Under the pieces are notes generated by a model that had not been told where the DNA came from, searched no databases, and saw nothing but the letters and a program-made list of their open reading frames with translations. Positions 349 to 11,195 of a stretch of 20,616 nucleotides of DNA are shown in pieces (within the stretch, counting starts at the first letter, position 1; each line of letters begins with the position of its first letter). Source of the stretch: a virus; the IMG/VR virus record IMGVR_UViG_3300042565_003210, positions 1 to 20,616 of that record; one strand, given 5' to 3'. Position numbers and translations under genes: made by a program.

Positions 349-1392
349 TCAGATCGCGTTGCCGAAGATGATCCCGGTCGCTGGGGCAGTCATGACATAC
401 GCCCAGTTTTCGCTGACAGCACCGTCAACCAACTTGTTCCAGGTGTCCGTCTTCGCTTCGACGTTCATTTCTTCGTGAGCGAAACAGGTGATCGTCGAGA
501 ACGACGGAGCACCGTATTTGCCTTCGATTCCGCCCGGACGGGCAGTGATGAAAGGAGTGTCACCGCCCAAGACGTATGAGCTTGCCAGAGTTGCACCCGG
601 CTTGCTGGTCACGCGAACCGTGTCTTCAATGACCAGTTCCAGGCCGAACAGATACTTCGGCAGGTCATAGTCAACATTCGGATTTTCATTCATCGCTTCG
701 CCCTTCAAACTTGCCAAGGCGAACGGGCTCTTTGCGATGAAATCAACGACTTCCTGACACTCAGAAATCTGCTGAGCACAATCGGGACCGATAACCAACT
801 GCAGATCCTTCTTCTTCACGGCACCCAGAGTGCTCTTGTGAATCTGCTTCACGGCCGCATTGATGGACTTGCGGATCGTTCCGCGAGCCACGGTTGACGC
901 GCCCCATCGGCTGGAGTCACCGGAGATTGAAGTAACGTCAATCTGATGAGCCGAGGCATAGTTGCCAGTCGTCGTTGCCACAGCAATCGCCCGAGTGGCT
1001 CGATGAGTCATCGCCAACTGCTGCTTCATTCGGGCATGGCGTTCAACGTTGTCCCATGAAGCATTTTCAACGCCCAACTGACCGAGCGTGAACCCAAAGT
1101 TCTTGCGGCGAGTGATGTAGCTTAGGAACTCATGTTCCGCCGTGCCATCGACACCGGACGGACGAGGAGCCCCATCGGGCCAATCGACTTCAAGACCAGT
1201 TGCAGAGATTCGACCGGCTGCCGCAATGTCCAAATTCAGGTACAGGCCAACCGTCGGAGCATCAGGAACAACCTGAGTGTATCGGTTCACCGGGAAGCTG
1301 GACGGCTTGCGGGCGAAGTCGATAATCAGAGATCGCTTCTGTTCGAATGTTGGAACAAAGGTGTTATTACCACCTGGGTGAACCATAGTCAT
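349..1392 (-). CDS. Probable phage major capsid protein
   Basis: 347 residues. ATG at 1392 has AAGGA 9 bases upstream. The length, an early region rich in short beta-like segments (IDFARKPSSFPVNRYTQVV) and a central basic helix region followed by alternating beta segments fit a HK97-fold major head protein. The position fits too: it follows a protease/scaffold gene and a small decoration-type gene. The assignment rests on context more than on a diagnostic motif. The N-terminal peptide VHPGGNNTFVPTF (residues 4-16) recurs nearly unchanged inside the protease/scaffold protein at its residues 231-243. A 12-bp inverted repeat with the conserved late motif lies upstream at 1454-1490. It could instead be another abundant head protein, which is less likely. 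Confidence 0.7.
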   Translation of the reverse strand: MTMVHPGGNNTFVPTFEQKRSLIIDFARKPSSFPVNRYTQVVPDAPTVGLYLNLDIAAAGRISATGLEVDWPDGAPRPSGVDGTAEHEFLSYITRRKNFGFTLGQLGVENASWDNVERHARMKQQLAMTHRATRAIAVATTTGNYASAHQIDVTSISGDSSRWGASTVARGTIRKSINAAVKQIHKSTLGAVKKKDLQLVIGPDCAQQISECQEVVDFIAKSPFALASLKGEAMNENPNVDYDLPKYLFGLELVIEDTVRVTSKPGATLASSYVLGGDTPFITARPGGIEGKYGAPSFSTITCFAHEEMNVEAKTDTWNKLVDGAVSENWAYVMTAPATGIIFGNAI

Positions 1393-1453
1393 GGCTGGAG
1401 ATCCTTCAAAGTTTCAGAGATTCAATGTTTCAGGAGGAATCGTGTTTTGTGGT

Positions 1454-1490
1454 CTTATGTCACATCCCAGCCAGATGCATGTGACATAAG
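1454..1490 (-). promoter_or_regulatory. Control site A: perfect 12-bp inverted repeat upstream of capsid gene
   Basis: CTTATGTCACAT at 1454-1465 and its exact reverse complement at 1479-1490 flank a 13-base loop. The right part contains ATGCATGTGACAT (1475-1487), which recurs exactly at 3809-3821 and 15207-15219 and with two changes at 13631-13643. No T-run follows on the minus strand, so it is unlikely to be an intrinsic terminator. A protein-binding site or RNA hairpin controlling the capsid gene, 62 bases downstream of the repeat, is the best reading. Confidence 0.6.
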
Positions 1491-1513
1491 AGAGTCAGGT
1501 TTCAGAGTTCAGA

Positions 1514-1918
1514 TCAGGCGAGAATGCCGGAGATCGGAGTGACGCGGATGTATTCCCCGGCCGCCCCGGATTCGTCGGCGATTGCACCGTAATACTTGCC
1601 AGTCGTGCAAGTGATGCCCTTGCCGTCAGCGTCTGGCATCAGCAATGCACCGCGAGTGACACCGCCAGTGCCGACAAGCAGCCAAACGGTTGAATCGTGG
1701 CCTTCACCGGACAAACCCGGCTGGTGAACCTGAATCAGCCCGCCCGATGTTCCTGCTGCAGATGCAGCACCAGTCAGCGGAGCAACTTCCGCCCATCGCT
1801 GAGAGATCCCACACGGAAACGAATCAGCATCAGCCTGAAGGACCGTAAAGTCTGCAGCAGTGCTGCGCTTCACGAATCGAGCAGGTTCAATTGTTCCACC
1901 ACAAGCAAAAGCTTTCAT
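1514..1918 (-). CDS. Probable capsid decoration (cement) protein, DUF2190-like
   Basis: 134 residues. ATG at 1918 is preceded by GGAG with 8 bases spacing. The sequence starts MKAFACGGTIEPARFVK and is rich in Gly, Ala and Thr with short beta-type segments. It ends GAIADESGAAGEYIRVTPISG, resembling the end of DUF2190 capsid cement proteins, where a Gly/Ala-rich loop precedes a hydrophobic beta strand. Those proteins are small and are encoded between the protease and the major capsid gene, as here. The match is by eye. A terminator-like hairpin lies upstream (1951-1972), so its expression may be separated from that of the protease/scaffold gene. Confidence 0.55.
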   Translation of the reverse strand: MKAFACGGTIEPARFVKRSTAADFTVLQADADSFPCGISQRWAEVAPLTGAASAAGTSGGLIQVHQPGLSGEGHDSTVWLLVGTGGVTRGALLMPDADGKGITCTTGKYYGAIADESGAAGEYIRVTPISGILA

Positions 1919-1950
1919 TTTTCAAACTCCAGATCGGCGAGAAACACTAT

Positions 1951-1972
1951 CAAAAACGGCTTCAATCAGCCG
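1951..1972 (-). terminator. Candidate intrinsic terminator after protease/scaffold gene
   Basis: On the minus strand CGGCT, a 6-base loop GATTGA and AGCCG are followed directly by TTTTTG. The stem is short (5 bp) but has a clean U-tract. It lies 42 bases past the stop of the protease/scaffold gene and 32 bases before the decoration gene start, so it may set the ratio of scaffold to capsid products. Confidence 0.45.
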
Positions 1973-2014
1973 ACGATTTCACTTTTCACTGGGGCAAACT
2001 AAAGCCCCGCAGGT

Positions 2015-3664
2015 TCAAGACTTGGCAGACTTCACTGGGAAGGACTTGCCATTCCGAAGATAAATTTCTTTGGCATCAAAGAAATTCACATCGTGTTCAA
2101 TGCAATACTTTTCAACCACTGGCAGTTCAGCAGCAGTCAACTGGCTTTCAGACTTTGACGGACCAGTCACGCCGCCCGGAGTGGCCTGAACCCCATCCGA
2201 CAACGCGGCAAAGTCCGGCATGTTCGTCAGAGTTCGCTGATAGTTGTCAGTGATGATCTGAACGTGAGCGTCAAACTGCTCAGGCGAGTAGCCAGCAGTT
2301 CGTTCCAACTCAACTTCCGGCTTCAGGATGAAGTCAGATGCAAGCTTCTCAAGGCGGGAGTAACGCTCAATCCGAGTCTTCTCGCCGTCGATTTCGGCGA
2401 TCCTTGCCAATGCATCAGCCAACTGCTTGCGAAGCTGGGCATTTGCATCCATCACGTCGCGAAGATCGCGAGAGTATTTGTCTTTGTCTTTGTCCTGGAC
2501 CATAGGAGGCATTCCGGGTTTAGGAGGAACTGGAGGAGCCCCGGCCGCAGGAGCGACTGGAGGAACCGGAGAATTGTTTGCCGCTGGCGGCTGAGCCATC
2601 GAAGACTGATTTGCCGGAGGTTGACCGGGCATCTGAGCCGCAGGGTCGGCCGGAGAGGGAGGAGCCTGAGCACCGCCCGCCGCTGGAGCATTCGGATCAG
2701 CAGGGATCTGATTCGGGATTGCAGGGTTTGGCATTCCGGAATCACCAGATTGCCGCATCAGGCCGAACAGAAACTGCATTGGCTGGGTTTCCAACCAAAC
2801 TTCCATCAACTCTTCCAAGGTCAACTCGGAAAGCTTTGTGCCTTGACCGCTGCTGACTGGAGTCTGAGCAAGACCGTTTGAAGAGTCCGCTGAATACTGA
2901 TCGGCCATAGGTTTGCGTCCGTCTGGCGATGCCTTGAACGATGGAACGAATGTATTCGAGCCACCAGGAAAGACAGCCGAATAGCATTCAACGAAAACCG
3001 GCGATTCATCCGCGGATCGTCGCGAGTAATGAGCCGGAGGAAGATTCAATCGAGGCATTTCCTCGCCCAGAGTGGCAATCGGATAAAAGAACCGATCACG
3101 CATCCGCGAGTAACGCCAAACTTCAGGAGACCGGCCGACTCGCTTTTTGAGTTCCGGAACAGCGTCCTTCATGTGATATTCAGTGCCGAAAATCGCCCAT
3201 CGGGGATTCTTTCGGCCAATCATTCCCAGTTTGTATGGACCGGCAAACCCGAGAACCTCTGGCATTTGCCTGTCGCCATCCTTCGCGCCCGGCTTTTGGC
3301 CGGTATGTCCGCGAGTGATCGGGCTGAATTCGTCATGATCCAAGATCCGGTCATTCATCCCGTCAACCATTTCGGCCAGTTCATCGCGGCCGTAATGCTG
3401 AGCAGGGATTTCCTTATCCTGAATTGTCTGAGCCGGAACAGTGTGTTCGTGGAACATCGCCACGTTATTCAATCGCTGGTATTGATCCGGAGTGAACCGA
3501 GATTCGACCAGTTCGGAAATCGTTGGATCTTCGCCACGATGTTCATCCCAAGCAGCAAAACAGGCTTTGTTTCGCTTCGAGGTGTCAGGCATTTCGCCCA
3601 TCATCGCTTCATGGAAGCGGATAGCGAATTGCGGCTGAGTCTCGTTTTCGTTGGGGATGATCAT
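2015..3664 (-). CDS. Prohead protease/scaffold fusion protein (Mu gene I-like)
   Basis: 549 residues in three parts. Residues 1-225 resemble the protease of Mu-like I proteins: PITRGHTGQ near 115-123, then GxxGPYKLG, a YRYS-type segment (VWRYSRMRD, 182-190) and a PRLNLPPAHY segment near 204-213. Residues 253-390 form a Pro/Ala/Gln-rich linker. Residues 390-440 form a charged coiled coil (LRDVMDANAQLRKQLADALA) typical of scaffold domains, followed by a conserved-looking C-terminus. In this family the protease cuts scaffold and capsid during head maturation. The peptide VFPGGSNTFVPSF at the protease/scaffold junction is nearly the capsid N-terminus. Met253 has a GGA-type site upstream and could start a nested scaffold product. 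The ATG at 3664 lacks an obvious Shine-Dalgarno, which is unusual here. Confidence 0.7.
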   Translation of the reverse strand: MIIPNENETQPQFAIRFHEAMMGEMPDTSKRNKACFAAWDEHRGEDPTISELVESRFTPDQYQRLNNVAMFHEHTVPAQTIQDKEIPAQHYGRDELAEMVDGMNDRILDHDEFSPITRGHTGQKPGAKDGDRQMPEVLGFAGPYKLGMIGRKNPRWAIFGTEYHMKDAVPELKKRVGRSPEVWRYSRMRDRFFYPIATLGEEMPRLNLPPAHYSRRSADESPVFVECYSAVFPGGSNTFVPSFKASPDGRKPMADQYSADSSNGLAQTPVSSGQGTKLSELTLEELMEVWLETQPMQFLFGLMRQSGDSGMPNPAIPNQIPADPNAPAAGGAQAPPSPADPAAQMPGQPPANQSSMAQPPAANNSPVPPVAPAAGAPPVPPKPGMPPMVQDKDKDKYSRDLRDVMDANAQLRKQLADALARIAEIDGEKTRIERYSRLEKLASDFILKPEVELERTAGYSPEQFDAHVQIITDNYQRTLTNMPDFAALSDGVQATPGGVTGPSKSESQLTAAELPVVEKYCIEHDVNFFDAKEIYLRNGKSFPVKSAKS

Positions 3665-4617: not shown

Positions 4618-6669
4618 TCAGTCTCCTGGTATTCCTTCCGGGAAAAGAGCCTTTATCGTCTTGTGCAGCGTACCATGTGGGGAGACTCTTTCGCAATGAT
4701 CATGCACAGAGCCCCAGCTTTTACAAGGTAGGCCAAATACATCATAGCCTGAATACTGAGTCGGAATTGACCCATTGACTTTGTGAAACTTGGAGACAGC
4801 CATTATGAATCTTGCCTCGTAGTCAGAGTTCCACTCTTTTGGAGGTCTTTCAACAAGAAATCCCCTGAGTCCGCTTTCCCCAAGCCTCCTCAGATAAGAA
4901 TGAACCTGAAACCATTTCTCACACGGCAATTCTCCAGTGTCGCCGTCCTTCATGGAGGGCATTCGGCCATTTTGGTTCTTAAACCTTTCAGCCTCTTGCC
5001 TGATTGTCTCCTTCCATTCTTCCGGCAAACGCGAACCCCAACTGGCCTTTACAACAACCCCTTTACCGCATAACTCAACAATTGCATTGTTCAACGATCC
5101 GAAATTCGTTGTCAGTTTGAAATAGTTGTTCGCTGAAATCCATGTACGGCAGAAAAAACCAAAGGTGTCGCCGTCTCTCTTTGTTGGATACTTCCCAAAT
5201 CGTTCACGAAACGCTTCAACAGATGAAATGAACTCTGCTTGAACTTCTGGAGACCACCTCTTCCATTTCATGTAACTGGAAAACTCAAGGATCTTTTCTG
5301 AAAGTGTTTCGGGATTCAGATTCGTCAACAGCCTCTTCCACTTTGCCAGCCCTTCATTAGTCCTCGCAGGCCCATCCTCGCCACCGTTTACGCGAACAAT
5401 ATCCCGAATCTCGGTGTTCAGCGTCTCGTCAATGCTCCTCATGGCATTCAGAACCTTCACCGCATGGCGAAACGGCGAACTTTCAACAGAAACCTCATCC
5501 TCATCTCCATTCGCCCAAGCATCCACAAAAACAGGGATGTAGATGACGAGCTTTTCTTTACCGAGTTCAACCCTCGTCCCCCGGCCGATTGCCTGGGCAA
5601 TCTGAATTGTCGAAGTCATAGGATCAGCAATCACAATCCGATTCACTGACGGCGCATCAATGCCCTCGCCAAACACCTTAACACTGCAAATCGCACTGCT
5701 CGCAGAATGATCCTCAAACTCCTTCAGGATCTTCTCTCGCTTCTTAACTGGATATTTCCCAGTGATGCAAGCTGAATGAACCCCATTCCGTTGAAGGATT
5801 CTGTTGAACTCTTCTGACCGATCAATTCGAGTGTGAAACACAAAGACGCGGCCCCTATCTTCATTCTTCATCTGACTTGCCACATGGGCCGCCACAATCT
5901 CAGAGAGTTCTTCTGGATGTTCTGCCTGCCGGATTTTTCGCAATGAATCAAGCGCCAGCACATCAACAATGTGAATCTCATAGTCACAAACGATTCCGCA
6001 CTCCAGAGCCTTTGCAAAGCTGAACTGAAAGAACTCTGGACCATACAAAGATTCATCATCCATACTGGCCGACTCATCTTTTGAGCCAGAATAAAGACGC
6101 GGAGTTGCTGTCAAAAACAACCTGTTTGTCACCTGCATGTGACTATCATAGATGCAGTGAGACATTTTCTTGTTCTTTGGTCCGGCCGTATTGTGGGCCT
6201 CATCAGACACGAGAAGGCCAATCTCCTTTCCGGCCGTTTCATTTGCCTCACAGAGTTTCAGGTAGCTTTGATACGTGCTGATCACAAGAACCGGAGATTT
6301 CTTTGTTGCCGTCGATAACGTCTCAGCGATTTCGGCCGGAGAGGTGGTGGCATTGGCAATCTCGTAATCTTCTGGCGTTTCACCATGCATCTTCGAACAA
6401 ACTGGCAGCACTCGATGTTTCGGCGCGTGCTCCTGGCAGTCTTTCAGGAACTGGCTGACAAGCCCGAGAGACGGGACACAAATCACCGTCACTTCATCAG
6501 ATCGTTTCGCGATGACCATGAAGGCAACTCGCGTCTTGCCGGTCCCGCAAGCCATGATGCATTTGCCGCGAGAATTCTTCTTAAATCCCTTCAGGATCGC
6601 ACGAACGGCAGAAGCCTGAATCCTTGTCTTCTCTTGATTGATCTGCTCAATTCTCAACATCGCGTTCAT
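4618..6669 (-). CDS. SF2 DEAH helicase with C-terminal helicase-associated (HA) repeats
   Basis: 683 residues. The DEAD/DEAH core shows Walker A MACGTGKTR (39-47), Walker B DEAH (156-159), motif III LTATP (186-190), motif V VFGEGIDAP (332-340) and motif VI QAIGRGTR (359-366), in the order and spacing of restriction-type or UvrB-like SF2 translocases. The C-terminal third holds three repeats, at about 472-517, 549-595 and 611-660. Each has a W, a helix, a [FN]G.[MIY]P turn and a C..W motif (for example RMPSMKDGDTGELPCEKW). They match the helicase-associated domain. No nuclease or methylase motif is visible. ATG at 6669 has AAGGG about 9 bases upstream. A terminator lies just before it. It probably acts on nucleic acid during replication, recombination or defence. 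Confidence 0.85.
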   Translation of the reverse strand: MNAMLRIEQINQEKTRIQASAVRAILKGFKKNSRGKCIMACGTGKTRVAFMVIAKRSDEVTVICVPSLGLVSQFLKDCQEHAPKHRVLPVCSKMHGETPEDYEIANATTSPAEIAETLSTATKKSPVLVISTYQSYLKLCEANETAGKEIGLLVSDEAHNTAGPKNKKMSHCIYDSHMQVTNRLFLTATPRLYSGSKDESASMDDESLYGPEFFQFSFAKALECGIVCDYEIHIVDVLALDSLRKIRQAEHPEELSEIVAAHVASQMKNEDRGRVFVFHTRIDRSEEFNRILQRNGVHSACITGKYPVKKREKILKEFEDHSASSAICSVKVFGEGIDAPSVNRIVIADPMTSTIQIAQAIGRGTRVELGKEKLVIYIPVFVDAWANGDEDEVSVESSPFRHAVKVLNAMRSIDETLNTEIRDIVRVNGGEDGPARTNEGLAKWKRLLTNLNPETLSEKILEFSSYMKWKRWSPEVQAEFISSVEAFRERFGKYPTKRDGDTFGFFCRTWISANNYFKLTTNFGSLNNAIVELCGKGVVVKASWGSRLPEEWKETIRQEAERFKNQNGRMPSMKDGDTGELPCEKWFQVHSYLRRLGESGLRGFLVERPPKEWNSDYEARFIMAVSKFHKVNGSIPTQYSGYDVFGLPCKSWGSVHDHCERVSPHGTLHKTIKALFPEGIPGD

Positions 6670-6735: not shown

Positions 6736-7020
6736 TTACGCCGATCGCTTTGATTTCGGCGAAGGCATGGAGACCCAGCAAAACAAATCATCATCCCATC
6801 GACAGCCGGGAATCTTTACACCCTGTTCCGGAGCCAGTGAGATCTGGAAAAACTCATCAGCCCCAGCATCCCCGATACGCTCTGCTTCAGTCACGCTGAA
6901 TGACGGCGAGGATCTGAAGATTTCATTTCCGGCCCGATCCTTGATGATTAGGCAAATGCTCTTCTTAAAATCAGGGGAATCGACAATGGCCAAATCTGCA
7001 CTTTGTGTAGCACTGTCCAT
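6736..7020 (-). CDS. Unknown 94-aa protein downstream of XRE regulator
   Basis: I choose ATG at 7020, with GGAAGG about 10 bases upstream, rather than the TTG at 7038. The product (MDSATQSADLAIVD...) has a beta-like first half (KKSICLIIKDRAGNEIF), an acidic middle and a C-terminus with GCRWDDDLFCWVS and a basic SPKSKRS tail. I do not recognise it. It follows the XRE gene by 72 bases and is followed by a strong terminator, so the two form a bicistronic unit. It could be the regulator's partner, for instance in a toxin-antitoxin-like pair, or a DNA-processing accessory. Nothing in the sequence decides this. Confidence 0.6.
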   Translation of the reverse strand: MDSATQSADLAIVDSPDFKKSICLIIKDRAGNEIFRSSPSFSVTEAERIGDAGADEFFQISLAPEQGVKIPGCRWDDDLFCWVSMPSPKSKRSA

Positions 7021-7092
7021 GACGCAAACACCTTCCAACTAACATGAAGGCGATGCAGTTCCCAGACAACTCTGAATGGGACATCGCCGGAG

Positions 7093-7338
7093 TCATGCTG
7101 ATGGCTTTTCTGACTCAGGTTGATCTTTCACCAAGGATAAGCCAAGAACTTTGCATACCTCATCGGCAGAGCCAAGAGTCAAATCACGTTCACCACGAAC
7201 AAACCGTGACAACTGTGATGCGCTGATGTCTGTCTTGTCTGCAATTGAAACAAGCGTTTCTCCTGATTCTGAAATGGCTTTTCTAACCATCTCGCTCAAA
7301 GACAACCGCTTGCTCTTTGATGGCTTCTTCTTCTCCAC
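7093..7338 (-). CDS. XRE-family helix-turn-helix regulator
   Basis: 81 residues starting with GTG at 7338, AGGA about 12 bases upstream. After a basic N-terminus (EKKKPSKSKR) comes a five-helix lambda-repressor-type domain. The segment LVSIADKTDISASQLSRFVRG (about 29-49) is the helix-turn-helix, and TLGSADEVCKVLGL is the following dimer-side helix. The size is that of Cro-like repressors and antitoxin or controller proteins, with no peptidase domain. The upstream region carries a sigma70-like promoter whose spacer contains a tandem 15-bp repeat, so autoregulation is likely. It shares a transcript with the 94-aa gene up to the terminator at 6681-6720. Confidence 0.8.
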   Translation of the reverse strand: MEKKKPSKSKRLSLSEMVRKAISESGETLVSIADKTDISASQLSRFVRGERDLTLGSADEVCKVLGLSLVKDQPESEKPSA

Positions 7339-7374
7339 GGCACAAAATTCCTGATAAAGTCACCAGTTGTGAAC

Positions 7375-7403
7375 AATGTAAGTGTCAATAGTCAAAGTGT
7401 CAA
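7375..7403 (-). promoter_or_regulatory. Sigma70-like promoter of the XRE operon
   Basis: On the minus strand TTGACA (7403-7398) and TACATT (7380-7375) are separated by 17 bases. The second copy of the tandem repeat, with its own TTGACA, lies within the spacer. Transcription would begin near 7368, about 30 bases before the GTG start of the regulator. Confidence 0.6.
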
Positions 7404-7410
7404 TAGTCAA
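7381..7410. repeat. Tandem 15-bp repeat, likely operator of the XRE regulator
   Basis: AGTGTCAATAGTCAA occurs twice without gap or mismatch (7381-7395 and 7396-7410), overlapping the -35 and spacer of the promoter at 7375-7403 and the last codons of the upstream gene. Just downstream is an inverted TTGT-GA-ACAA element (about 7367-7376). Binding of the XRE protein here would block its own promoter. Confidence 0.65.
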
Positions 7411-7706
7411 TTGCTCTCTTTAGCCGAGAAGCTACCTTTCACAATGTTGTTGTGATTGATGAACTCTCGTACTGCACTGGAAATTGTCTCATTAGCTTTG
7501 GCATTTCTGAAAAATGCAACGATCAGTAATTTGTTAGATGCCCCAATCTGACTCCAGCATGATTGGCAAACTGGAATCAGATTGTCTCCATCGATAACAA
7601 ACGGCGAACACTGCTTGACGCAAACAGCACATCTGTAAACGTGGCCGGAAACATTCGGCGCGCACTTTCGCGACTTCTCGTTCTTTTCACCTTGGCTGCC
7701 AGCCAT
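7407..7706 (-). CDS. Small zinc-binding protein with two CxxC knuckles (degenerate HNH-like)
   Basis: 99 residues. ATG at 7706 has GGAG 8 bases upstream and follows the KTSC gene stop by 24 bases. Two knuckles, CAVC (26-29) and CQSC (47-50), flank IDGDNLIPV. The arrangement NL.P.C..C resembles the zinc-holding part of HNH endonucleases, but the catalytic His residues are absent and a Trp replaces the usual final His. It is therefore more likely a zinc-ribbon or treble-clef binding protein than an active nuclease. The second half is helical with mixed charge. It is the first gene of the accessory block, and its last codons overlap the regulator's operator. Confidence 0.65.
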   Translation of the reverse strand: MAGSQGEKNEKSRKCAPNVSGHVYRCAVCVKQCSPFVIDGDNLIPVCQSCWSQIGASNKLLIVAFFRNAKANETISSAVREFINHNNIVKGSFSAKESN

Positions 7707-7730
7707 TTAATCGACTCCAGTGAAGGAACT

Positions 7731-8984
7731 TCACCTACCAACATAAGGTCTGCCGGATTCGATTCGCCCGCGACTATCGCCGCCACGATCTCGATTTCCG
7801 TAATTTGCTGCAGATCCTCTGGGCGGATTGTACCGGCCAACAGTCTGATTAGGTAATGGAGATCGCAAAATCTCTGTGCGTCCGTCCGAGTAAAGTGCTG
7901 TTCGCTGTCGCCTCACAAGACGTTGCATTTGATTCTGGACAACAAATCGGCGTGGAAGATAACCCTGGGCGGCACGAATCAAATCATACTCGTATTGATG
8001 CCCTGCTTTTGTGCCCCTAATTCGTAACCTGTCCCACACCCACTTTCCGGCCGATCCAGCATTCAACATGTCAGAAAACCAGTCAGGATGAACCGATTTG
8101 TAACTGTAGGTCGGGCCTCCAACTTTGCCAGATCCGCCCTTTCTGTCCTTCTGCAAATACCGAATGATCAATTCGCCCTTCAGTGGCTGATTGAAATTAA
8201 AAGCGTATCCGACGGCGTAAACGTTCGAGCTTTGGACTCGAATCATTTCTCCAGTAAGTAAAGGATCACGAGGATTCAAAACTCTGTGATATCCAGGCCC
8301 CCTCACTTCGTAGTCGCCGTTAGAGAGAATTCTCACATTGGGATGAGGCCCCAGAGCGTAATCGGTGGCAGGCGGAAGTCTGTTCGATGAGCCGCCGGAA
8401 CCGCTCGAACCACTTCGGCCGGAAGAAGGAGAGGCGGGCGCGTTCGGGTTTCTCGACTGGGAAGGCGTTCGCGGCTGAATCGGTGGCAAGTCTGGAACGT
8501 TGGCACCCTCAAACCAATCTTCCACCCGTCGCCCGCCGGCCTGCTCAGGCGTCACCGGTTCATCCATCAACTGAGGAGCAAACTGGCTGAGCATGTTCAG
8601 GGCCTGCTGAACATTCTGCCGAATCGGATTCAGGGACTGTTGCCCCTCGCGACCTCGCAGCCAGGACTGAATCAACTGCCCTGGAGTTCCCAGAGAATTC
8701 AGAACTTGACTCACCAATGAGTTCGCCTGCTCCCTCGCCATCCGGCCGACCGCATCGGCCATCCGGACCAACTGAGATTCCACCGGCAGAAGCCCGCCAG
8801 TTCCCCGCAATGCTGAGGCCAACTGCCGAGCGTCTGACTCAAGTTGCCTGGTTGTCTGGGAATGCGGGTATTGCAGAGCCCGATTCATCCGCTCGAGGAT
8901 TTCCGTAGCTCGCTGGGCCTGTTCGCGAGCGCGAGCAGACTTGGTTGAATTGGGGAATAGATTTGTGTTTCTGATGAGGGCCAT
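7731..8984 (-). CDS. KTSC-domain phage structural or head-associated protein
   Basis: 417 residues. ATG at 8984 has AAGGA 9 bases upstream, overlapping the end of the terminase gene 13 bases away. Residues 15-140 are helical and Gln/Arg/Ala-rich, probably coiled coil. Residues 145-205 are a Pro/Ser/Gly-rich linker. Residues 249-323 match the KTSC pattern: SSNVYAVGY, then a beta strand, YSYKSVHPDWFSDML, and a Gly-Ser-Ala-Gly-Lys helix before LRIRG. The C-terminus is Arg/Gly-rich and likely disordered. KTSC domains are small and widespread, often in phage or plasmid proteins of unknown role. Its place directly after terminase, where a portal would be expected, suggests a packaging or minor head function. 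Confidence 0.65.
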   Translation of the reverse strand: MALIRNTNLFPNSTKSARAREQAQRATEILERMNRALQYPHSQTTRQLESDARQLASALRGTGGLLPVESQLVRMADAVGRMAREQANSLVSQVLNSLGTPGQLIQSWLRGREGQQSLNPIRQNVQQALNMLSQFAPQLMDEPVTPEQAGGRRVEDWFEGANVPDLPPIQPRTPSQSRNPNAPASPSSGRSGSSGSGGSSNRLPPATDYALGPHPNVRILSNGDYEVRGPGYHRVLNPRDPLLTGEMIRVQSSNVYAVGYAFNFNQPLKGELIIRYLQKDRKGGSGKVGGPTYSYKSVHPDWFSDMLNAGSAGKWVWDRLRIRGTKAGHQYEYDLIRAAQGYLPRRFVVQNQMQRLVRRQRTALYSDGRTEILRSPLPNQTVGRYNPPRGSAANYGNRDRGGDSRGRIESGRPYVGR

Positions 8985-8997
8985 TTTGTTCTATCCT

Positions 8998-10851
8998 TCA
9001 ACCTTCAAACTCTTCCTTAGACTTCTTCCCCCGACCATACCGACCGCCGAACGAAGTTTCCAGACCATTCCCGGCCAACAGATCACGCCAGTTGCCGGAA
9101 CTCTTCGCCACATTCTGAGCCGCTTTGCTGGATGACCGAACTGATTCGATCGTCAGGCCCAATTGCGAGTCATCAGAAAACGTGAGATACCTGAGCGCGT
9201 CCATACAGTGATCGTCAAACTTCAAAGGCTCAGGCCGAGGATTCAACGGGTTCAGGCTTTGGCCGTTCGCCCCGTCGGACTTGATCCACCGGTATTTCTT
9301 GATTTCCCTGATCAGATTCACGCACGAATAGTGAATGAACAGCCGCGGACGCTGAATCATGGATTCAGTGAACTCATTCCATTCCGGAATTGACCGCTTC
9401 AGCAGCCACTGAACATGCTCAATTCCTTCAATCACAGCATTCCGAGCCATGGACATGTTCAGATTCGGAATATCCTCTTTCGGTGGACCATACTTCGCCA
9501 ACTGCTGAGCTAACCGGATGTTCCCCGGGCTCGCTGGATCCGCGTAAGTCGTCCCGTACCATGGCTGATTCGGCCAGGGATGACGTTTCGTGACATCAAC
9601 CAGATGATCGACCGTCGTTTTCTCCTGATCGGTCGAATAAAGCTCATCGTAGATAAACCACTGGCTGAGCCGATTGCGAGCGCCCCACAGGCACACAAAA
9701 GCATTCTGAGGACCGGCACCCCAGTCAATTGCCCGCCGATGGCTGCAATTCCCTGACAGAATCCAATCGAAAATCTCATCACCGACAACGTGAACCGTCG
9801 GATCAAAGCTTTTGTAAATCACTCCTTCAAACGCCGCAAACAAACCCTTCAGCCGCATCCCGAGCGACTCTTTTGGGATCATCCCAAAGTATTCGTCGAA
9901 CCATTCCTTCGAGACATGGCCCGCTTCCATCGCACATTCAGTGTTCGCGTGGAAAACCTCCCAGTCATCGGGAAGATATTTCATGTTTGACCGGAGGGTG
10001 ATCTTTTCCGGCTTGCCGTTCTCATCCTCACTCTTCGGCCGCTTGCCGTTCTGAATCATCTCTTCGATGTCGCCGGACAAATCCGGATCCACCGGCGTAT
10101 ATTCGACCATCTTGGAGCCGGGAAGGTTGTATTCACGGCATCCGCGAAGAACTTCAGTAAAGACACCCCAGGGGAATTGCTCGACAAACGCGAAACCGCC
10201 GATGGATCGAGCCATCATCTGGTCAGCGCCTTGCCGCCAGCTTTTGAATTCCAGTGACCAATTGCCCCGAGGATCGTAAGGGAATTGTTCGGGGATCAGT
10301 TTTCTGAATAGATCACGATCGGCCTGGCAGTATGTCGGCAGGAGAGGAACGCGAAAGGGCAATTGCTGTTTCGGACGGTACCAGGCAACACGGTCCCAGT
10401 CGATATCGTCGTCCAGAATGTGCCCGTGCCCGTATAACTTTTCCTTCCAGCATGTTTCCATCGACTGTTCATAAGAACCGCCGATCACCCAGAATGGAGT
10501 ATCCTTTCGAGGAGCTGGAGTGTTCAGGACGAACTTGGCGACTTTGGCCATAGTCGTTTCGGTCGTGCCGGCACCGTTGCCGCCCAGCAGCCAGATCACC
10601 CCGCGAGAAGGGCAATTGTAGAACCCTGTTTGCTGGTCATATCTTTCAGGCTGATCAGGCCGAGGCTGCCACTTCAGTTGCGCAGGAAGATCAATCCCAA
10701 GAGCCGCTTCAGCGAGTTCCGCAAGTTCTGAGAGCTCAAAGGAATCAGGATCGGCGTTGAACAGCCGGTCAAAGAATGCATCGTCGAGATCGGCGAACTC
10801 TGGAAGATCAGAGGCGGCCGGAGAGGAGGGAGGACCGGCAAAGGCAATCAT
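8998..10851 (-). CDS. terL: Terminase large subunit, with altered Walker motifs
   Basis: 617 residues from ATG at 10851, which overlaps the ferredoxin stop as TGATG. The N-terminal ATPase region has the P-loop frame GGNGAGTTE (90-98), where the usual GKT/GKS lysine is Thr96. The Walker B region reads FAFVEQFPWGVFTE (221-234), with Val223 where Asp is expected and Glu224 kept. The C-terminal RNase H-like nuclease has its acidic residues: AIDWG (Asp376), YADPASP (Asp438) and FDDHCMDALRY (Asp546/547, Asp551). This motor-nuclease cuts and pumps phage DNA into proheads. The nuclease side looks complete, while the ATPase site is unusual. No small terminase subunit was recognised upstream. Confidence 0.85.
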   Translation of the reverse strand: MIAFAGPPSSPAASDLPEFADLDDAFFDRLFNADPDSFELSELAELAEAALGIDLPAQLKWQPRPDQPERYDQQTGFYNCPSRGVIWLLGGNGAGTTETTMAKVAKFVLNTPAPRKDTPFWVIGGSYEQSMETCWKEKLYGHGHILDDDIDWDRVAWYRPKQQLPFRVPLLPTYCQADRDLFRKLIPEQFPYDPRGNWSLEFKSWRQGADQMMARSIGGFAFVEQFPWGVFTEVLRGCREYNLPGSKMVEYTPVDPDLSGDIEEMIQNGKRPKSEDENGKPEKITLRSNMKYLPDDWEVFHANTECAMEAGHVSKEWFDEYFGMIPKESLGMRLKGLFAAFEGVIYKSFDPTVHVVGDEIFDWILSGNCSHRRAIDWGAGPQNAFVCLWGARNRLSQWFIYDELYSTDQEKTTVDHLVDVTKRHPWPNQPWYGTTYADPASPGNIRLAQQLAKYGPPKEDIPNLNMSMARNAVIEGIEHVQWLLKRSIPEWNEFTESMIQRPRLFIHYSCVNLIREIKKYRWIKSDGANGQSLNPLNPRPEPLKFDDHCMDALRYLTFSDDSQLGLTIESVRSSSKAAQNVAKSSGNWRDLLAGNGLETSFGGRYGRGKKSKEEFEG

Positions 10852-11171
10852 CAATCCACCCCGCCAAAATTCTCCCTGATCCTTTGTTTCTCCGCGTCAA
10901 TCGCCTGCTGAGTCTGAGTCAAAGGATAAACAGACCGCTGACCAGTGACAGGCTTATCACTCTTCGCGTCCTCAACCATCAAAGCCCCAGACGGGCATTG
11001 TTCAACCTGCTCTCGAATGTCCTCAGTTGTTCCGGCCTTCATGTTGACCCATGGCCGAGCATCCGGATTGAAAACTTCCGGCAATCCTTCCTGGCATTCG
11101 CCGCAATGAGTGCAGAGGCTGGAATCCCACAGGACATTGATTTCGCCGTTGGTGTATGTCCGTTTTGCCAT
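10851..11171 (-). CDS. Single-cluster [4Fe-4S] ferredoxin-like protein (YjdI/Fer4_19 type)
   Basis: 106 residues from ATG at 11171, preceded by CGGA about 10 bases away; a TTG at 11189 would add six residues. YTNGEINVLWDSSLC leads into CTHCGEC (Cys20, 23, 26), then LPEVFNPDARPWV, and QCPSGAL carries the fourth Cys (Cys59). This order, including the PEVF and RPW segments, is that of the divergent 4Fe-4S mono-cluster family. All four ligands are present, so one cubane cluster for electron transfer or sensing is likely. A helical tail of about 40 residues is extra. It overlaps the terminase start by one base, which ties an iron-sulfur protein to DNA packaging genes. Its partner is unknown. Confidence 0.8.
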   Translation of the reverse strand: MAKRTYTNGEINVLWDSSLCTHCGECQEGLPEVFNPDARPWVNMKAGTTEDIREQVEQCPSGALMVEDAKSDKPVTGQRSVYPLTQTQQAIDAEKQRIRENFGGVD

Positions 11172-11195
11172 TGGTTCAAATCCGTTCAAACATTC

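Follow-up and report, generated by a model that had tools for sequence, protein, structure and literature searches.

A short peptide of the capsid N-arm recurs in the protease/scaffold protein, and the two copies co-vary across a virus family

Results

Genes and proteins of the head cluster

The window, as we call the whole stretch of DNA analysed, is a 20.6-kb fragment of a virus record in IMG/VR. On its minus strand, the gene encoding a protease/scaffold protein of 549 aa (positions 3664-2015) is located upstream of the gene encoding the 347-aa major capsid protein (1392-349), and between the two lies a gene for a small head protein (1514-1918, minus strand), which was matched by phrog_673 and is probably a decoration protein. 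Inside the head cluster, with terminase on one side and protease/scaffold on the other, a DEAD/ResIII helicase-like protein of 683 aa is also encoded (4618-6669, minus strand). Directly upstream of the terminase gene is a gene for a ferredoxin-like protein (10851-11189, minus strand), the product of which matched Pfam Fer4_19, a divergent 4Fe-4S mono-cluster family (E 1.2e-22).

The window capsid itself gave a weak match to phrog_1005, 'major head protein' (0.0028), and the same family was matched by 11 of 22 relatives, the best at 2.4e-11. The AlphaFold model of the capsid (pLDDT 78) retrieved 3bjq (E 2e-12) and the D3, T5 and HK97 capsids in a Foldseek search. As judged from this predicted structure, the window capsid has the HK97 fold. 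The N-arm, residues 1-26, was modelled with pLDDT below 50 and is unstructured in the monomer model.

For the protease/scaffold protein, no match was found in Pfam, NCBIfam, the named PHROGs or PDB. In BFVD, the prohead protease of POR1 (E 0.027) and a KSP20 scaffold (E 0.066) were matched weakly, and unnamed proteins more strongly. Four residues, His120, Thr121, Ser179 and Glu181, are invariant in 21 relatives, and the invariant His120 and Ser179, the gene order and the weak structure matches together suggest that the N-terminal domain is a protease. The protein is thus named here as a putative serine protease (residues 1-230) followed by a linker (231-281), short helices, a Pro-rich stretch (309-397), a coiled coil (394-442) and C-terminal helices. 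In the AlphaFold model the chain is folded up to residue 230, of low confidence between 231 and 281, and helical thereafter.

A peptide common to the capsid and the protease/scaffold protein

The first-pass annotation of this DNA had pointed to a peptide present in both proteins, and this observation was confirmed. Residues 4-16 of the capsid, VHPGGNNTFVPTF, which lie inside the N-arm (1345-1383, minus strand), and residues 231-243 of the protease/scaffold protein, VFPGGSNTFVPSF, which lie in the low-confidence linker (2936-2974, minus strand), are identical at 10 of 13 positions. When both whole proteins were compared without anchoring, the best ungapped match fell on the same stretch with a score of 59, the highest score in 60 shuffles being 45. 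The similarity was also claimed to be kept at the protein level, and codon usage bears this out. The same codon is used at four of the 10 identical residues, as compared with 4.1 expected from codon usage, and, summed over 25 lineages, at 71 of 195 identical residues, as compared with 80 expected. Since codon likeness is no higher than expected, the similarity is kept at the protein level and not by gene conversion, which is thereby ruled out. The motif profile detected no copy in the small head protein encoded between the two genes.

To collect relatives, contigs of IMG/VR and GTDB were scanned with profiles of the capsid and of the protease, which gave 35 lineages that carry both genes and have capsids about 40-81% identical. 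Relatives from MAGs are labelled Planctomycetaceae, Phycisphaerae and Saprospiraceae. A search of 50,697 phage records with the window capsid and protease and with the L043 and L034 capsids detected no cultured relative, and a sequence search for solved relatives found none. In one lineage, L087, protease and scaffold are encoded by two overlapping reading frames instead of one protein (6914-9492). The large terminase frames of L017 (2-901) and L021 (1-537) open, by eye, with what resembles an intein C-terminus.

In each of 26 loci the motif profile gave exactly two strong matches, one to the capsid and one to the protease/scaffold protein, and no further copy elsewhere in the head genes. Together with the shuffles, this result rules out a chance match. 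When capsid residues 2-21 were compared with the whole protease/scaffold protein, the motif was the best match in 33 of the 35 lineages; the remaining two, L052 and L087, have weak scaffold copies at the expected place. A scaffold copy was therefore identifiable in all 35 lineages, and none retained one copy without the other, so that this part of the refuting condition named in the first-pass annotation was run and did not refute it.

The scaffold copy was described in the first-pass annotation as separating the protease part from the scaffold part. This holds for the window, as judged from the AlphaFold model, but not for some relatives: the copy sits in the middle of the scaffold in L105 and N-terminal to the protease domain in L102. 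This relocation indicates that the copy is a movable module rather than a feature of the junction, and a junction or release site as its required position is ruled out.

Co-variation of the two copies

Alignment of the relatives, proposed earlier as a check, indicated that the two copies change together over the 35 lineages. The pair similarity was 39.7 for copies from the same genome and 30.7 for copies from different genomes (z 8.9, p<=5e-6). As shared ancestry could inflate such pairing, each lineage was matched to its nearest relative by capsid body and the partners were exchanged. Own pairs were better in 14 and worse in two of the 16 informative cases (p=0.002), a test that lessens the effect of shared lineage ancestry rather than removing it, both pairing tests being simpler than full phylogenetic models. 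The joint changes can be seen directly in the capsid and scaffold copies, respectively, of L033 (PGPQNTFV and PGPENTFV), L054 (PGPSNVYI and PGPSNVFV, with PGPS in both), L106 (PESSNTFVP and PESGNTFVP), L097 (GPFSVHVP and GPGNVHIP, with SVHVP against NVHIP) and L061 (PSATN and PSATS, with PSAT in both). 

Register of the copies and candidate tyrosine cleavage sites

In 24 of 25 lineages the scaffold copy is preceded by Tyr, and in the other one by Phe. The residue ahead of this Tyr/Phe is K, R or C in all 25, with a consensus of V-E-[KR]-Y. In the same 25 lineages, the two copies are in register when the residue after the capsid Met is aligned with the residue after the scaffold Tyr, the mean BLOSUM score being 1.17 per position as compared with -0.13 or less for other shifts. 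The register is clearest in L070, with AITPQYPSGYN after the capsid Met and SIAPQAPGAYN after the scaffold Tyr. Residue 2 of the capsid is A, P, T, V or S in all 35 lineages, the capsid starts of L035, L040 and L042 being GTG codons picked by alignment. With such a small second residue, removal of the initiator Met is expected.

The tripeptide [KR][YF][SA] was found 84 times in the linker and scaffold parts against 10 expected, an eight-fold enrichment, often at domain borders; in the capsid it was found 13 times against seven expected, with no strong enrichment. This distribution suggests that the tripeptides are candidate self-cleavage sites. In the window, cleavage is predicted ahead of the motif at VEC-Y228|S229 (2978-2992) and beyond it at DQ-Y257|S258 (2891-2899). 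Further candidates are the HYS where the protease core ends (residues 212-214; positions 3023-3031), the KYS where the coiled coil begins (residues 396-398; 2471-2479), and the RYS within the coiled coil (residues 434-436; 2357-2365; all on the minus strand), of which Arg434 is invariant. The L102 copy has no Tyr site ahead of it, and several lineages (e.g., L039, L057 and L065) differ in the distance from Tyr to motif, so that an N-terminus freed just ahead of the copy would not be universal.

Discussion

Proposed mimicry of the capsid N-arm

The reading we favour, with an even chance of being right on the sequences at hand, is one of N-arm mimicry: the scaffold copy would imitate the arm of the capsid and keep its docking site occupied until proteolysis. 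In the procapsid, the scaffold copy would fill the site used by the capsid N-arm, which may be a groove on an adjacent capsid subunit or the place of one partner where two arms meet, and would so tether the scaffold to the shell. The [KR]Y|[SA] repeats of the scaffold would then be cut by the protease, in most lineages once just ahead of the copy, which would give a fragment with an N-terminus resembling that of the Met-trimmed capsid. Removal of the scaffold would free the site, and the real N-arms would occupy it during maturation. Binding of the copy to the capsid, cutting at the Tyr sites and the order of these events are all steps that we infer. If N-arm and scaffold share a docking site, the scaffold copy would have to track every change of the arm. 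A more specific proposal, that self-cleavage after Tyr exposes a Met-trimmed-capsid-like N-terminus which holds the place of the N-arm, and that the two copies have coevolved throughout the existence of the family, is offered as a tentative possibility.

Partner exchange of this kind has parallels. In SPP1, the capsid N-terminus is engaged by the scaffold, and once set free the N-arms pair antiparallel with those of the next capsomer (PMC6813328); in JBD30, the hooks of the N-arms touch one another (PMC11445458). Both systems are like our proposal in that the N-arm exchanges its partner once the scaffold is released, and in that arms come into contact with one another. They are unlike the window family in that the available text mentions no copy of the arm in the scaffold (PMC6813328, PMC11445458).

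A possible shared processing site and other explanations

The first-pass annotation offered two readings of the peptide: a site of processing, or a stretch of scaffold mimicking or docking the capsid N-arm. The joint change of the copies fits mimicry or docking well, and the motif now appears less likely to be the cut site itself. Co-variation, however, would arise equally if a protease read both copies, one enzyme with two substrates, and it thus also fits a shared recognition site. The main rival is accordingly that the phage protease, or a host protease, accepts the motif of either protein as a substrate and would both trim the N-terminus of the capsid and cut the protease/scaffold protein, the two sites following one specificity; we consider this unlikely. 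It has a precedent in the S. aureus phage 80alpha, where the host protease Prp cuts an N-terminal sequence common to capsid and scaffold at F|A, with removal of 13 residues from the capsid and 14 from the scaffold (PMC5744158), and the place between protease and scaffold would suit a release site. Against this, L102 and L105 carry the copy elsewhere than between protease and scaffold. Another motif, present many times in the scaffold, looks more like a cut site, the [KR]Y-[SA] repeats adjoining and beyond the peptide being the likelier places of cleavage. At the position of the Phe in NTF, the scaffold copy has F, Y, H, C, R or V, leaving no obvious fixed P1. In addition, the Met+1/Tyr+1 register and the small capsid residue 2 (35 of 35) would be left without a reason.

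It is less probable still that the peptide is a common address tag, bound in both proteins by one third partner such as a portal, a minor head protein or a chaperone, the copies then not competing for a site on the capsid. Such a tag would explain both the co-variation and the relocation, and a common chaperone was proposed for the shared N-termini of 80alpha (PMC5744158). It fits less well with the capsid N-arms of known systems, which bind other capsid subunits and contact the scaffold.

An internal translation start beside the motif, producing free scaffold with a capsid-like N-terminus, is very improbable, even with the precedent of Mu, where Z is made within I, and with a Met near the place in several lineages (e.g., RYMMVAPGG in L018). 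No ATG, GTG or TTG is present there in the window, L033, L034, L035, L044 or L045, which rules out such a start as a general rule. Chance, or mere inheritance of a duplicated peptide that now has no function, could appeal to the shortness of the motif and the joint inheritance of both genes, but it is hardly credible: each of 26 loci gave exactly two matches, both copies differ jointly between close relatives such as L054 and L033, codon likeness is not above expectation, and the swap test contradicts it.

Comparison with known systems

The window family and 80alpha both share a short peptide between capsid N-terminus and scaffold. Both 80alpha copies are at gene starts, whereas the scaffold copy of the window is internal to a protease/scaffold fusion; the peptide sequences are unrelated, and the copies of the window family co-vary over 35 lineages. 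In 80alpha the scaffold sequence is essential for assembly and its cleavage is not (PMC5744158).

Mu gpI/Z resembles the window in that a single frame ahead of the capsid gene encodes both protease and scaffold. The LSA sequence occurs six times in Mu gpI (L046, 2557-3642), mostly within A-[AV]-L-S-A, and seven times in a Pasteurella relative. This repeat may mark the cut sites of the Mu protease and is comparable to the [KR][YF][SA] repeat of the window family. Membership of the window protein in the Mu gpI family is not supported by profile comparison (hhalign probability 0.3%, E 0.23), and by eye no obvious copy of the Mu capsid N-terminus, MIVTPASIKALMTS, was found in gpI. Herpesviruses have a self-cleaving protease fused to a scaffold with a release site, a layout analogous to that of the window protein.

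Significance

Among open-licence papers, we found none describing this pairing of capsid and scaffold peptides. The Tyr register, the enrichment of [KR][YF][SA] and the mobility of the scaffold copy are new in this work. Recognition of the capsid by a phage scaffold is usually seen from structures only. Here the sequences point to the scaffold-capsid contact, a ligand of 10-15 residues present twice and coevolving in 35 lineages, and such a twin ligand makes the hand-over from scaffold to capsid directly testable. They also suggest a cut-site rule for the protease, [KR]Y|[SA], in a family without a cultured match in the collection searched. From these sequences, the scaffold protein probably holds on to the shell during assembly by mimicking the N-arm of the capsid protein.
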